From positions 1 to 21,237 of IMG/VR virus record IMGVR_UViG_3300042902_000127: DNA of 21,237 nt, one strand, 5' to 3'. This document shows positions 12,178 to 17,525 of this stretch, piece by piece. Source of the DNA: a virus. The notes beneath the pieces are model-generated. The model did not search any database. It saw nothing but the letters and a program-made list of their open reading frames with translations, and was not told the origin of the DNA. Position numbers and translations under genes: made by a program. Each line of letters starts with the position of its first letter. The first letter of the stretch is position 1.

Positions 12178-12756
12178 ATGGCATACTTAATAGATCGATT
12201 AGAGCAAGAACTTGGCACGACTAACTACGAACCAGGATCAAGACGATCCAGAACTTGGTTACGTAAAAAGATCAACGACCTTAAACCTACTGCTCAAACA
12301 GTAATGGCAGATAGGCAGAGACTCAAGAATTCTGCGTTTATTGGAGGTATGTACTTTTTCTATTATGATCCTAAGCACAAGAAAACGTTGCCATATTACG
12401 ATACATTCCCATTGGTAATCCCAATAGAACAATACCCAGACGGGTTTTTAGGGTTGAATCTACATTACATTCACCCAAAGCAACGAATTCTTCTTTTAGA
12501 CACATTGAGTGCATATAAGACGAATAATAATTATGATGAAAAAACTAGATTGAAATTGAGTTATGATTTTTTGAGGAGAGTATCATCGGCATATCAAGCA
12601 ACTCCTTGCATTAAAAGATATCTTTTCACTCAAGTAAATTCTAGATTTTTAGAGATAACTGCTAATGAATGGGATATTGCTATTATGTTACCAGTTGAAC
12701 AATTTACCGGCGCAACATCTAACAAAGTTTGGAACGACTCAAGGAAGAAATTCTAA
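12178..12756 (+). CDS. Conserved-looking tail/head-region protein of unknown function, 192 aa
   Basis: I have the impression of a conserved T4-like marine phage family but cannot name it with confidence. The N-terminus is basic and helical (RRSRTWLRKKINDLKPTAQT, about 22-41). A central aromatic block follows: FIGGMYFFYYDPKHKKTLPY (about 54-73), then YDTFPLVIPIEQYPDGFLGL and NLHYIHPKQRILLLDTL. The C-terminus has IKRYLFTQVNSRFLEITANE and DIAIMLPVEQF. No signal peptide, membrane segment or nuclease motif is seen. It stands between gp4 and a tube-like protein and overlaps the latter by one base (TAATG). A virion or assembly role is likely from position. A DNA-end protector (gp2-type) role is a possibility I cannot support from motifs. 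Confidence 0.8.
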   Translation: MAYLIDRLEQELGTTNYEPGSRRSRTWLRKKINDLKPTAQTVMADRQRLKNSAFIGGMYFFYYDPKHKKTLPYYDTFPLVIPIEQYPDGFLGLNLHYIHPKQRILLLDTLSAYKTNNNYDEKTRLKLSYDFLRRVSSAYQATPCIKRYLFTQVNSRFLEITANEWDIAIMLPVEQFTGATSNKVWNDSRKKF

Positions 12757-13484
12757 TGGCATTTTCACCTAACGATTTTATATCGAATATCAACTCTAGA
12801 GGAGGTCTCACAAGATCAAATCTCTATGCGGCAGTTATTCCTATTCCAGTGTATATTGACAACTTTGTGACTTATAGTGTAACCGATGCATTGGAAAATC
12901 TAGGCAATAATATTGTGAACTCTTTTGTGGATCCAATAACTAGTTTTGTCAATCAAGCATTGGGTCGTGGTCCTATCAACGGACAATCAAGAACTGCAAG
13001 TGGAGATTTTTCTAGAAGTTTGGCACTATTGTGCGAGGCTGCTGAGTTACCTGGAAAATCATTGATGACACATGAAGCAAGGGTGTATGGTCCAACATAT
13101 AAAGTTCCTTATCAAGCACAATATGGAGAAATGAGTCTAACATTTCTTTGCACAAATGACTTCAGTGAAAGAACTCTTTTCGATAGATGGATGGAAGCAA
13201 TTCTTCCATCTGACACAAATAATCCTAGATTTCCAAAGAGTGATAAATCTAGATATATGACAAATATACAAATAATAAAATATGATGATACTGCTCAAGA
13301 AATATACATTATAGAATTGCAAGATGCATTTCCAACATCAATTGCTGCCCAACAAATGAGTTGGCAAGATGATGGTTTCTTAAGATTGACTGTACAATTC
13401 TCTTATCAATTTTACAAAGTTATATTTCAGGGTGGTTTCAATCCATCGCAACAAAATCTCACTACATTTGGCTTGGGTAGATAA
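12756..13484 (+). CDS. 54: Tail-tube-fold protein, gp54-like baseplate-tube junction (or gp19-like)
   Basis: 242 aa with the start at 12756, where the ATG overlaps the previous stop (TAATG) and an AAGGAAG Shine-Dalgarno lies about 8 nt upstream; an earlier in-frame ATG at 12729 would lie inside the preceding gene without such a site. The opening MAFSPNDFISNINSRGGLTR, then CEAAELPGKSLMTHEARVYG, then YGEMSLTFLCTNDFSERTLF and WMEAILPSD form the tube fold. The terminal strand pair has AFPTSIAAQQMSWQDDGFLR and LTVQFSYQFYK. This is the common tail-tube/hub fold. T4 gp54 (320 aa) and gp19 (163 aa) share the pattern: a proline-containing loop, a strand ending in P-x-S, then a terminal beta strand. 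An N-terminal arm absent from the simple tube protein and the tail-assembly context favour gp54. Confidence 0.65.
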   Translation: MAFSPNDFISNINSRGGLTRSNLYAAVIPIPVYIDNFVTYSVTDALENLGNNIVNSFVDPITSFVNQALGRGPINGQSRTASGDFSRSLALLCEAAELPGKSLMTHEARVYGPTYKVPYQAQYGEMSLTFLCTNDFSERTLFDRWMEAILPSDTNNPRFPKSDKSRYMTNIQIIKYDDTAQEIYIIELQDAFPTSIAAQQMSWQDDGFLRLTVQFSYQFYKVIFQGGFNPSQQNLTTFGLGR

Positions 13485-13502: not shown

Positions 13503-14240
13503 ATGGCATTACCTAAAATTGACGTACCAATATATGAAATCGAACTTCCTTCAAATGGAAAGAGCATTAGATTTCGTCCGTTTACAGTAAAAGAAGAAAA
13601 GTTGTTTTTAATGGCATCACAATCTGAAGATGCTGATTCAATATTTAAAACAATCATACAAGTATTAAACAACTGTATTCTAGATGAACTTGATATTGAA
13701 AAAACTTCATTATTTGATATTGAATTTTTGTTCCTAAATCTTCGTGCAAGATCGATTGGTGAAGTTGTTGAACTATCATACAAATGTAATAACGAGGTTA
13801 CTGGTGAGGATGGACACAGCAAAACATGTAACAATGTAGTCAATATAGATGTTAATGTTTTAGATATTAAACCATCGGGTAATGCATCTAAAGATAACAA
13901 AATTCAATTCTCACCAAAATTGGGTATGGTGATGAAATATCCCACACTCTCTATATTAGAATTGAGTAAAGATAAGACTGATGAACTCGACATCATTATT
14001 GAGATGATAGTTGCTTGCGTTGATTATATTTACGATGAAGATAATATCTATTATGCTAAAGACAGCACAAAAGAAGAATTGATGGAATTTTTGGATTCAC
14101 TACAATCAAAAGAACTCGATAAAGTTAAAGATTTTTTTGAAGATTTACCCAAATTAGAAAAAGATTTGGATTTTAAATGCAATAAATGTGGACATGAAGA
14201 AATTATTAAATTAGAAGGCATACAAAATTTTTTCGTGTAA
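13503..14240 (+). CDS. 26: Baseplate hub assembly protein gp26 (T4 baseplate chaperone family)
   Basis: 245 aa (T4 gp26: 208 aa). The N-terminal PIYEIELPSNGKSIRFRPFT followed by VKEEKLFLMA (about 9-38) is the family signature. FDIEFLFLNLRARSIGEVVE (71-90) continues it. Cys95 and Cys109 surround a Gly/Asp loop, and Cys226-x2-Cys229 with His231 lie near the C-terminus; together they could form a split zinc ribbon. The protein acts in hub assembly and is not known to stay in the mature T4 particle. GGAG is 7 nt before the ATG. The last codons read through A AAT TTT TTC just before the stop, which is a slippery site leading into the gp51 frame. The gene immediately precedes gp51 as in T4 (25-26-51). 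Confidence 0.88.
   Translation: MALPKIDVPIYEIELPSNGKSIRFRPFTVKEEKLFLMASQSEDADSIFKTIIQVLNNCILDELDIEKTSLFDIEFLFLNLRARSIGEVVELSYKCNNEVTGEDGHSKTCNNVVNIDVNVLDIKPSGNASKDNKIQFSPKLGMVMKYPTLSILELSKDKTDELDIIIEMIVACVDYIYDEDNIYYAKDSTKEELMEFLDSLQSKELDKVKDFFEDLPKLEKDLDFKCNKCGHEEIIKLEGIQNFFV
14225..14234 (+). other. Programmed -1 frameshift site joining gp26 to gp51
   Basis: In the gp26 frame the bases read A AAT TTT (14225-14231), an X XXY YYZ heptamer, overlapped by T TTT TTC (14228-14234), a second one. Slipping back one base enters a frame that is open from 14210 to 14425, has no ATG, GTG or TTG before 14291, and encodes gp51. The zero-frame stop TAA is at 14238. The fusion would have 243 gp26 residues plus 65, in total 308 aa. 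No strong downstream hairpin or upstream internal Shine-Dalgarno is obvious. Confidence 0.8.
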
Positions 14241-14428
14241 TTTTTAGTCATGATAACTTAGGTAATTTCTTTCAAACTAATTTTGCTTTAATGCAACATC
14301 ACAAATATAGTTTGACTGAATTGGATAATATGTTACCTTGGGAAAGAGATGTTTATGTAAGTATGCTTATGAAATATTTGGAAGAAGAATCTGAGAGAAT
14401 AAAACTACTAAATCAGCAGAGAAAATAA
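14231..14428 (+). CDS. 51: Hub assembly protein gp51, expressed as -1 frameshift extension of gp26
   Basis: 65 codons in the frame -1 to gp26. The product reads FSHDNLGNFFQTNFALMQHH, then KYSLTELDNMLPWERDVYVS, then MLMKYLEEESERIKLL. The LPWERDVYVSML block is the pattern seen in the second part of tail assembly chaperones (the T part of lambda-type GT and gp51 of T4-like phages). No ATG, GTG or TTG precedes the conserved FSHDNLGNFF segment, and the first ATG (14291) lies after it. Production as a gp26-gp51 fusion is therefore most likely. The stop TAA touches the next gene's ATG (TAAATG). An ATT start at 14240 is a weaker alternative. The family call relies on motif and on its place between gp26 and the tape-measure-like genes. 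Confidence 0.8.
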   Translation, partial: FRVIFSHDNLGNFFQTNFALMQHHKYSLTELDNMLPWERDVYVSMLMKYLEEESERIKLLNQQRK

Positions 14429-15943
14429 ATGGCAACATTAGCCGATGTAATACGAAAACGAAGAGAATCTGGACAAGGAGTTGGACAATCACTTGCCGGA
14501 AGTCTTAAGGAAAAACTGAAAGAGAAGATTGATCCTAGAAGATTCTTAAATCAGTCTGGGATCATAACAGCATTGTTTCCGAAACTTAAAGCGTTCAAAG
14601 CATCAGGTTCACGTGGTGTTGGTTCAGAACTGCAAAAGAGGAGTGTTGAACTTACCGGAAGTTCTTCTTCATTGTCTAGTGGATCTTTAAGTAGAATAAA
14701 ATTAGATTCTGAAATAACTGCGAAAAATAGTATGGTTCTTCCTGCATTGGCTCGGGATATGAATATCATGCGCCAAAATATCGCAAAACTTCTAAAAGAA
14801 TTTGGCGTTAAACCGACATATAGATCCGATAGATTCTTCAAGAAAAGTAAAGATCGAGAAACTGAATATGAAAGTGCAATATCGACTGGTTCCAAATCAC
14901 CTGAAAAATTAAATAAATCCGACAATGAAAAAGAATCGTCTGGTGGAATATTATCAATATTAGGAAAAATTCTACCATTTGTAACTTCTATTGGTGGAAT
15001 ATTAATATCTTCTATTGGAAAATTGAAAGGACTTGTTACTGGTTTTCTAAGTATGGCGATTAAACCGGTAATGTCTTTAGTTCAATCAGTTTTTTCTGGA
15101 CTAGTAGTTTTGGTAACATCAATACTTGGTAAAATCTTAAAGAGTGTTTTGAGAATATTCAGTTTGTCTAATATGTCGAAAATATTAGGTAGATTCTTAA
15201 TAGGTACAGTTGGCACAGGACTTATTGCCGCATCACTTGCCGCTGTTGCCGCAACATATGGATTAAATGCAATTTCTAATAAATTCAAACAGGATAGTTT
15301 GGATAAGTTCAATGCTGATCCAAGTCGATCGGCAAAAGATGCCATAGAATCAGAGAAAACTTTTGGAAAAGTTGGTGCTAATGCTCTAGGAATTGGTACA
15401 CAATCCGTCAAAGAAAATTATGTTGCATCAGAATTAATGAAGACTGATCCAACATTAACTGCAGGTCAAGCATTGAATAAATCTAGTCAAATCTTAGAAG
15501 GCAAAGATCCTAATGGAGCATCTGCACCAAGTGAATTTTCTGGCATGGATACTGATGGTGCTTCAGATGGTATGCAATTGGATCCTGTATATGCTGAACT
15601 TGTACGTACAGCAGAGATTTTATCTACAACAGGAAATGTCGAATCTAAAATAACTCAAGACCAGAGTAACATTACTGATACAAATCAAAAAGCAATAACA
15701 CCACCACAACAAGTGCAAAACCCTGCAACACAATTACAGGGACAAACTATTGGATCACAGACCCAAGATAATAAAGAAAATATTATGGGCATTGTCGAAG
15801 TTGGTGAACCTGAAACAGTAGTTGCTCCAATAAATCAACAAAACAATTCTACTAGAGAAATCACTCAAGATAAAATCCCAAGTGCCGTAAATGATGATAT
15901 TGTTTATTATTTTGGTGGAGGTGTAAACAATGTCTACGCTTAG
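14429..15943 (+). CDS. Tape-measure/hub-like protein, paralog A
   Basis: 504 aa. The N-terminal motif TLADVIRKRRESGQGVGQSL with SLKEKLKEKIDPRRFLNQSG and ALFPKLKAF (residues 3-56) is nearly repeated in the next gene. A second shared motif is DRFFKKSKDRETEYESA (134-150). Residues about 172-280 are strongly hydrophobic and contain several possible membrane segments (for example ILPFVTSIGGILISSIG and LIAASLAAVAATYGL), then a polar Gln/Asn/Thr-rich C-terminus. Hydrophobic stretches inside a long helical protein directly after tail chaperones are typical of tape-measure proteins; T4 gp29 has 590 aa. The ATG abuts the gp51 stop, with only a weak AGAGAAAA ribosome site, so it is probably coupled. No sequence match to gp29 was recognised; the role is inferred from layout. 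Confidence 0.6.
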   Translation: MATLADVIRKRRESGQGVGQSLAGSLKEKLKEKIDPRRFLNQSGIITALFPKLKAFKASGSRGVGSELQKRSVELTGSSSSLSSGSLSRIKLDSEITAKNSMVLPALARDMNIMRQNIAKLLKEFGVKPTYRSDRFFKKSKDRETEYESAISTGSKSPEKLNKSDNEKESSGGILSILGKILPFVTSIGGILISSIGKLKGLVTGFLSMAIKPVMSLVQSVFSGLVVLVTSILGKILKSVLRIFSLSNMSKILGRFLIGTVGTGLIAASLAAVAATYGLNAISNKFKQDSLDKFNADPSRSAKDAIESEKTFGKVGANALGIGTQSVKENYVASELMKTDPTLTAGQALNKSSQILEGKDPNGASAPSEFSGMDTDGASDGMQLDPVYAELVRTAEILSTTGNVESKITQDQSNITDTNQKAITPPQQVQNPATQLQGQTIGSQTQDNKENIMGIVEVGEPETVVAPINQQNNSTREITQDKIPSAVNDDIVYYFGGGVNNVYA

Positions 15944-17525
15944 TTCACTCATATCGAAAAGAAGAATCTCTGGACAAGGCGTTGTTAGTTCTTTGGGTGG
16001 TAGTTTGAAAGATAGATTGAAAGAGAAAATTGATCCTAGAAGACTATTCAATCAGAATGGTGTAATGACATCACTGTTTCCTGGTTTGAAATCATATAAC
16101 GCATCGACTAGTTTTTCACCGAAAGAAAATGTTATAAATGATCCTATTTTACAAGACATATCAAAAAGTATGACTGTCCTTGCAAAAAAAACGAGTGTAT
16201 TGAAAGAACTTTCTCGTGACGCTAGAAATATGTCAACGAATTTGAAAAAGTTCATCAACATGCTTGGTAAACAAAAGGCGGCAGAAAGTGTAGACGCATT
16301 TTTCTTAAAATCTGATGAACGTGAAAAGTTGTATGAAAACACTAAACTTGATCCCATGTCAAACTCACCAGAAAGACAATCTAAGCAGAAAAAGAAACTT
16401 GGTGGTCTGATGGGAACACTACTAACAGTGGGACTTGCTGGAGTTGGTTATTTGACATATGATTTCCTGATGAATGGTGGAAATTCAATTGTTGCTAAAA
16501 CTTATGAGAAAATTAAAAATAAATTTATTCAACTGAAAATTGAATTTATGGATTATGTGATGAACACTGTAACTCCAAACATGGAAAAACTGTGGAGCGA
16601 TATTAGTAAACTTTCTGAAGATAGTTTGAACGATATCGTTGATAGACTACTCGATGGATTGTCGATTGGGAATATACTCAAATCTTTAGATAGTGACGAA
16701 TCTTCTATAGATTCTATGATGAAAGAGATTGAGAAATCCACAAACAACTACAAAAATAAGATGTCGGAATCGATCAACAATTTTTCTTTTTTTCCCGAAG
16801 CAAAAGCATCAACTTTGCCATCAGCATTAAGATCAAAAAGTCAACAAGATTTTCGTCAAACTGGTGTCGAAGATATTGATGCATCAACCAATACACAATT
16901 GCCTTCATTACAACAAAAACTTCTAAAGCGAGAGTCTGGCGGTAATTACAGAGTGATCAATACTATTGGTTATGTTGGTGGTTATCAATTTGGCGCAGCC
17001 GCACTGGAAACTTTAGGATATATTAAAACAGGAGCATCAAAACAGGGCAATCGTGTTTTAAAAGACTCGTCTGTTTGGACTGGAAAAAATGGTGCAAAAA
17101 GTTTAGATGATTTTCTATCAAGTCGTTATATACAAGATACTGCATTTCAAGAAAACGTTAGATTCAACGAGAGAGTGTTGAAAGATATTGGCGTCATCAA
17201 TAATAAAACAACAGAAAAACAAAAGTCTGGTCTTTTAGCAGTGGCACACTTACAAGGTGCTGGTGGTGCTAGAGATTTTTCTCGTGGTATAAACAAAGCA
17301 GACGCATATGGCACAAAATCTTCAGAGTACTTTAAACTGGGTTCTTCAGCGACATCAATTAATGAAATGTCATCATCTATTATCACAAATGAAAATATTC
17401 CAACAACTAAAGTTAAAACAGTGATCGTTGCAACGAATAGAGAAAATAATACAACAATCATAAAAAATAACAATTCAGTTATTCAACAAGATTACACCAA
17501 ATCTCTGATTGGCAACAATTCATAA
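15930..17525 (+). CDS. Tape-measure/hub-like protein, paralog B, with lytic transglycosylase-like C-terminus
   Basis: 531 aa. Residues 3-58 repeat the N-terminal module of the preceding protein (LISKRRISGQGVVSSLGGSL, then KDRLKEKIDPRRLFNQNG, then SLFPGLKSYNAS); DAFFLKSDEREKLYEN (122-137) repeats the second. One hydrophobic segment lies at about 158-182. The C-terminal domain starts with LLKRESGGNYRVIN (331-344, putative catalytic Glu335), then GYVGGYQFGAAALETLGY (347-364) and LAVAHLQGAGGARDFSRG (436-453), a pattern of SLT/lysozyme-like peptidoglycan hydrolases. It could open the wall during DNA entry. The tail is Asn/Thr-rich. The ATG overlaps the previous gene by 14 bp and has a GGAGGT Shine-Dalgarno 8 nt away. 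It is the last gene of the operon, closed by a terminator. Confidence 0.72.
   Translation: MSTLSSLISKRRISGQGVVSSLGGSLKDRLKEKIDPRRLFNQNGVMTSLFPGLKSYNASTSFSPKENVINDPILQDISKSMTVLAKKTSVLKELSRDARNMSTNLKKFINMLGKQKAAESVDAFFLKSDEREKLYENTKLDPMSNSPERQSKQKKKLGGLMGTLLTVGLAGVGYLTYDFLMNGGNSIVAKTYEKIKNKFIQLKIEFMDYVMNTVTPNMEKLWSDISKLSEDSLNDIVDRLLDGLSIGNILKSLDSDESSIDSMMKEIEKSTNNYKNKMSESINNFSFFPEAKASTLPSALRSKSQQDFRQTGVEDIDASTNTQLPSLQQKLLKRESGGNYRVINTIGYVGGYQFGAAALETLGYIKTGASKQGNRVLKDSSVWTGKNGAKSLDDFLSSRYIQDTAFQENVRFNERVLKDIGVINNKTTEKQKSGLLAVAHLQGAGGARDFSRGINKADAYGTKSSEYFKLGSSATSINEMSSSIITNENIPTTKVKTVIVATNRENNTTIIKNNNSVIQQDYTKSLIGNNS

Follow-up and report, generated by a model that had tools for sequence, protein, structure and literature searches.

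Genes 26 and 51 of an uncultured T4-like virus very probably form a single tail assembly chaperone locus, in which gp26 would be the short form and a 308-aa gp26-gp51 fusion, produced by -1 slippage of the ribosome on the heptamer T_TTT_TTC, would be the long form, with an upstream Shine-Dalgarno (SD)-like element probably helping. A -1 frameshift of this kind, likened to that of the lambda G/GT chaperones, had been proposed in an initial annotation of the DNA, and comparison with relatives now upholds it on five lines of evidence: the conservation of the slip site, the coding of the -1 frame, the lack of an independent start for gp51, the fold of gp26, which resembles that of chaperones, and the homology with the T4 proteins gp26 and gp51. 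The whole stretch of DNA that was analysed (the window) has 21,237 bases and comes from IMG/VR as a virus record. The features discussed below are:

12756 to 13484, + strand: tail-tube-fold gene, T4 gp19/gp54-like, upstream of gp26 (phrog_45 tail tube, 5.6e-35; PF06841 below threshold, 1.2e-5)
13503 to 14240, + strand: gp26, 245 aa with QNFFV before the stop, putative short tail assembly chaperone (PF12322, phrog_150, N-terminal fold)
14213 to 14218, + strand: AGAAGG, SD-like element 9 nt 5' of the slip site (anti-SD pairing)
14225 to 14231, + strand: A_AAT_TTT heptamer in the gp26 frame, not conserved (17/40 non-redundant sequences)
14228 to 14234, + strand: T_TTT_TTC slippery heptamer in the gp26 frame, conserved candidate -1 slip site (129/129 scored sites)
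14234 to 14428, + strand: -1-frame gp51 segment that follows the slip, 64 aa and a stop, putative C-terminal extension of the long form (phrog_634, C-terminal part of phrog_150, codon-position conservation)
14429 to 15943, + strand: 504-aa gene in the tape-measure position (weak match to phrog_10030 tape measure, 0.0039; otherwise position only)

The terminal codons of gp26 are CAA AAT TTT TTC GTG TAA. The gp51 frame is -1 relative to gp26 and open from 14210 to 14428, with no ATG, GTG or TTG ahead of the conserved FSHDNLGNFF, exactly as the initial annotation had read it, and a slip on T_TTT_TTC would join 244 and 64 residues into the product of 308 aa that it had predicted. Profile searches matched gp26 to T4_baseplate PF12322 (2.2e-60) and phrog_150 (8e-64), while the -1 segment matched phrog_634, 'baseplate hub assembly catalyst' (3.1e-27), and also the C-terminal part of phrog_150.

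Comparison with relatives confirmed the -1 register. A first set of 80 relatives was fetched from viral contigs; 76 of them reach the gp51 segment, the contig ending in the other four. The gp51 frame is -1 in 76/76, and T_TTT_TTC, replaced in two of them by T_TTT_TTT, lies exactly 10 nt 5' of the gp26 stop. A second set of 75 more distant relatives gave the -1 frame in 75/75 and T_TTT_TT(C/T/A) in 75/75. We then scored 129 sites (the second set, 13 isolate genomes, and the first set reduced to a single representative of each 90% cluster, window included), 110 of which are distinct at 85% identity. T_TTT_TT(C/T/A) was present in the gp26 frame near the end of gp26 at all 129, and the distinct sites were divided into TTTTTTC (79), TTTTTTT (28) and TTTTTTA (3). 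Isolates with the heptamer include members of Kyanoviridae, Schizotequatrovirus, Emdodecavirus, Otagovirus, Menderavirus and Busanvirus, as well as Caulobacter phage Cr30. The slip site is fixed at an invariant Phe-Phe, and the gp26 stop follows 7-16 nt further on (31 nt in Pelagibacter phage Mosig).

The alignment of this junction over T4-like relatives, suggested in the initial annotation, thus found the slip site at 129 of 129 sites but not in four Ackermannviridae or near-Ackermannviridae isolates, which were left out of that count; these four keep the -1 tail and lack the T_TTT_TTN heptamer. At the heptamer-less loci of Ackermannviridae and related Vibrio relatives (L087 2700-2905, L088 2720-2917, L090 2660-2880, L091 2720-2905), the junctions read ctt ttt gcg, gtt ttt cgc, ctt ttc aga and att ttc att. 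Two of the four Ackermannviridae-type relatives have TAATG at the gp26 stop.

Homopolymers are error-prone, and an error of sequencing or assembly in the T run, splitting one continuous gene, had been named from the start as a possible refutation of the frameshift. Since the same -1 junction recurs in 76 + 75 further contigs and in the isolate genomes, such an error is excluded; its probability is close to nil.

The codons of the slip site are themselves under evident constraint. Among 40 sequences that share less than 90% identity, TTT is the first Phe codon in 40/40 and TTC the second in 39/40, compared with a TTC share of 18% (83/471) among the Phe codons elsewhere (upstream) in gp26. At the codon level, few columns of gp26 are as conserved as those of AGT/AAT, TTT and TTC. 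Both of the slippery heptamers originally pointed out do lie in the gp26 frame. Only the second is conserved: A_AAT_TTT occurs in just 17 of the 40 non-redundant sequences, which leaves T_TTT_TTC as the relevant slip site, and we rejected A_AAT_TTT for this role. Beyond the gp26 stop, variation tracks the codon positions of the -1 frame (0.41, 0.21 and 0.82 bits).

Upstream of the slip site, relatives carry an AGAAGG/GGAGGG-like element, with 9 nt between its end and the heptamer. For its pairing with the 16S tail, a mean of -6.25 kcal/mol is predicted, versus -5.00 for synonymous shuffles (n=110; difference from synonymous recodings -1.25, s.e.m. 0.19). A conserved Glu-Gly supplies part of the SD-like signal, so that selection on protein and selection on RNA are not fully separable. 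In a control stretch, anti-SD pairing was not in excess over shuffles. Downstream, no conserved pseudoknot or hairpin was found at the usual 5-9 nt 3' of the slip site, and RNA structure gave a mean z of -0.25 in the first 50 nt, and of between -0.8 and -0.9 when 80-110 nt were taken (control -0.3). The best local hairpin (14267-14320) starts more than 30 nt past the slip site, beyond the usual spacing, and was discarded as a stimulator.

The same fusion could arise in a different way, with RNA polymerase slipping on the T run and adding an extra U to some transcripts while the ribosome stays in frame. The T run is there, and one added U would give the correct frame; however, the run has six Ts in most relatives, which by general knowledge is under the usual length for slippage of this type. 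The conserved unit, moreover, is a codon-phased heptamer that is usually closed by C, and the SD-like element upstream of it acts on ribosomes. We consider transcriptional slippage highly improbable.

Several database records annotate gp51 as a separate small protein instead, which in the window would be started from an internal ATG (14292, MQHHKYSL...) or from a non-standard codon in the -1 frame. The records of Mosig and Melnitz-2 have a gp51 of 44-47 aa that begins at an internal codon, and TAATG at the gp26 stop in some relatives speaks for a separate start as well. Against it, the lack of ATG, GTG or TTG ahead of FSHDNLGNFF extends from the window to 33/40 non-redundant sequences, and a protein initiated at 14292, which has no SD-like sequence 5' of it, would lose the conserved first part of the segment. 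A separate gp51 would also leave the invariant T_TTT_TTC unexplained, and T4 carries the same segment fused to a gp26-like N part. There is, in our estimate, very little chance that gp51 is made in this way.

The expected conservation of the missing gp51 start accordingly held for these 33 of 40 sequences and not for a minority with ATG, GTG or TTG in the -1 frame near the junction. In some frameshift-type relatives (L063, L064, L066, L067, L114, L119, L140, L144 and others), an ATG in the -1 frame lies at the gp26 stop itself (TAATG). Because of these start codons, some of the minority could also reinitiate, and coupled reinitiation might operate besides slippage in the relatives that bear TAATG.

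A -1 frameshift at this locus has direct consequences for annotation. In a T4-like genome comparison of 2010, the length of cyanophage gp51 was put at only ~20% of that of other gp51 proteins (PMC3037559). Isolate records either start gp51 at an internal codon, which leaves 44-47 aa, or lack the segment, so the frameshift explains the short cyanophage gp51; the database entries would be fragments of a frameshifted gp26-gp51, with the segment missing from some records. None of the isolate records examined has a joined, frameshifted gp26-gp51 annotation. Records in need of re-annotation as a joined gp26-gp51 CDS are L083 (2561-2695), L084 (2561-2704), L082, L101, L178 and L179. For this gene pair, which is near-core in very abundant marine viruses, the frameshift supplies a straightforward rule for correcting annotations.

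The fold of gp26 was examined by comparison of an AlphaFold2 model (pLDDT 85) with solved structures. For residues 1-94, the top matches were RBSTP2171 (Z 7.7), YqbN (7.2) and HK97 gp13 (7.1), followed by a next match at 5.0; all three are tail assembly chaperones (PMC9603447). These matches are limited to this one domain with Z below 8, and a sequence search against solved structures returned no meaningful homologue. With Foldseek E-values that are weak by themselves and moderate Z-scores over one domain, the fold evidence is moderate, and the model suggests that the N-terminal domain of gp26 has the tail assembly chaperone fold. Further along the protein, C95, C109, C226 and C229 (window 13785-14190) are invariant in 36 aligned close relatives and absent from several isolates; the four invariant cysteines suggest a metal-binding site in gp26.

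The order of tube gene, gp26, gp51 and tape measure, on which the initial annotation had also relied, agrees on its upstream side with the tube-like gene; downstream, the 504-aa gene is a candidate by position and by the weak tape measure match given above (phrog_10030). Tape measure profiles match the next large gene in three relatives, R11Z, phiN3 and Cr30. The 504-aa gene itself had no match among isolate phages, and BLASTP found no relation between it and the Cr30 tape measure. It shares a similar 180-aa N-terminal part (39% identity) with the gene at 15930-17525, which also has a hub/tail-lysozyme-like part (phrog_27932).

The two T4 proteins can be placed by the same comparison. A profile of the fused relatives matched T4 gp26 (2e-22), T4 gp51 (8e-14) and gp51 of Aeromonas phage Aes508 (1e-19). 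It aligns with T4 gp26 as far as the Phe-Phe position, and gp51 of Aes508, and more weakly that of T4, aligns to it along the N part as well as the extension. BLASTP between the two T4 proteins gave 1e-5. These alignments show T4 gp26 and gp51 to be paralogues that correspond to the short and long forms, respectively. In a tree with long branches, the T-even gp26 and gp51 rows fall into one group (96/92), as expected from one duplication. Schizotequatrovirus, of the same family as T4, retains the frameshift form. In T4 the two genes are transcribed divergently and start independently, whereas in the window they overlap in the -1 register within one locus and gp51 lacks a start. T4 gp51 is needed for assembly and is not in the final particle (PMC3004832).

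A broader scenario can be drawn, to which we give an even chance: in non-T-even T4-like phages, one frameshift gene (T_TTT_TTC with an upstream SD-like element and no downstream structure) would set the chaperone ratio, the T-even branch would have swapped it for gene duplication 26/51, and the Ackermannviridae relatives would rely, at that junction, either on slippage at a non-canonical site or on coupled reinitiation. The T4-like phages offer a natural comparison, within one phage group, between a ratio set by a frameshift and one set by two separate genes.

For the window, comparison shows the -1 register, the conserved slip site, the enrichment of the SD-like element, the chaperone fold and the paralogy in T4; slippage itself, its rate, the short/long ratio and the roles of the two forms are inferred, as follows. 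The majority of ribosomes would terminate at 14238 and release gp26 of 245 aa, the short form. A minority would slip back by one base on T_TTT_TTC (14228-14234), with tRNA-Phe in both the P and A sites, probably assisted by the pairing of AGAAGG (14213-14218) with 16S rRNA. These ribosomes would continue to 14428 and yield the 308-aa fusion, the long form, so that frameshifting would set the stoichiometry of gp51, as proposed at the outset. By analogy with lambda G/GT, both forms may wrap around the tape measure protein, bring in components of the tube or hub, and dissociate afterwards.

According to papers that cite it, Vladimirov, Gautam and Davidson 2022 (Virology 566:9-15) named the short and long chaperone genes of T4-like phages (PMC10885494, PMC12846349), with separate short and fused long genes in place of frameshifting in some of these phages (PMC10885494) and with poly-T -1 signals in the TAC-N genes (PMC12846349). 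Judging from these accounts, the central claim has probably been published. The connection of T4 gp26/gp51-type genes with tail assembly chaperones, which the initial annotation had drawn, was already in print in 2022, and a gp26-gp51 frameshift is probably not new in kind; the statistics on the upstream stimulator and the explanation of the 'short' cyanophage gp51 may be additions. A limited literature search found no paper that itself describes a gp26-gp51 frameshift in cyanophages or pelagiphages.

As in lambda gpG/gpGT, a tube gene is followed by the short form, its -1 extension and the tape-measure position, and the slip comes close to the 3' end of the gene for the short form. Xu, Hendrix and Duda reportedly described gpG/gpGT, and -1 frameshift chaperones more widely, in 2004. 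The lambda slip site is G_GGA_AAG, in contrast to T_TTT_TTC here, and gp26 differs in having a large second part past the chaperone domain. We know of no sequence similarity to lambda gpG/gpGT. In E. coli dnaX, an SD-like element about 10 nt 5' of the slippery heptamer acts in -1 frameshifting together with a downstream hairpin; the upstream SD-like element is shared with the present locus, which differs in that no hairpin was found at the usual distance and may thus be an example of an apparently SD-stimulated slip site without downstream structure. A poly-T -1 signal is likewise found at the chaperone locus of Pakpunavirus Adele and the Andersonviridae, where GTTTTT is conserved and the -1 frame is open (PMC12846349); these are other families, and their motif is not identical to the one described here.
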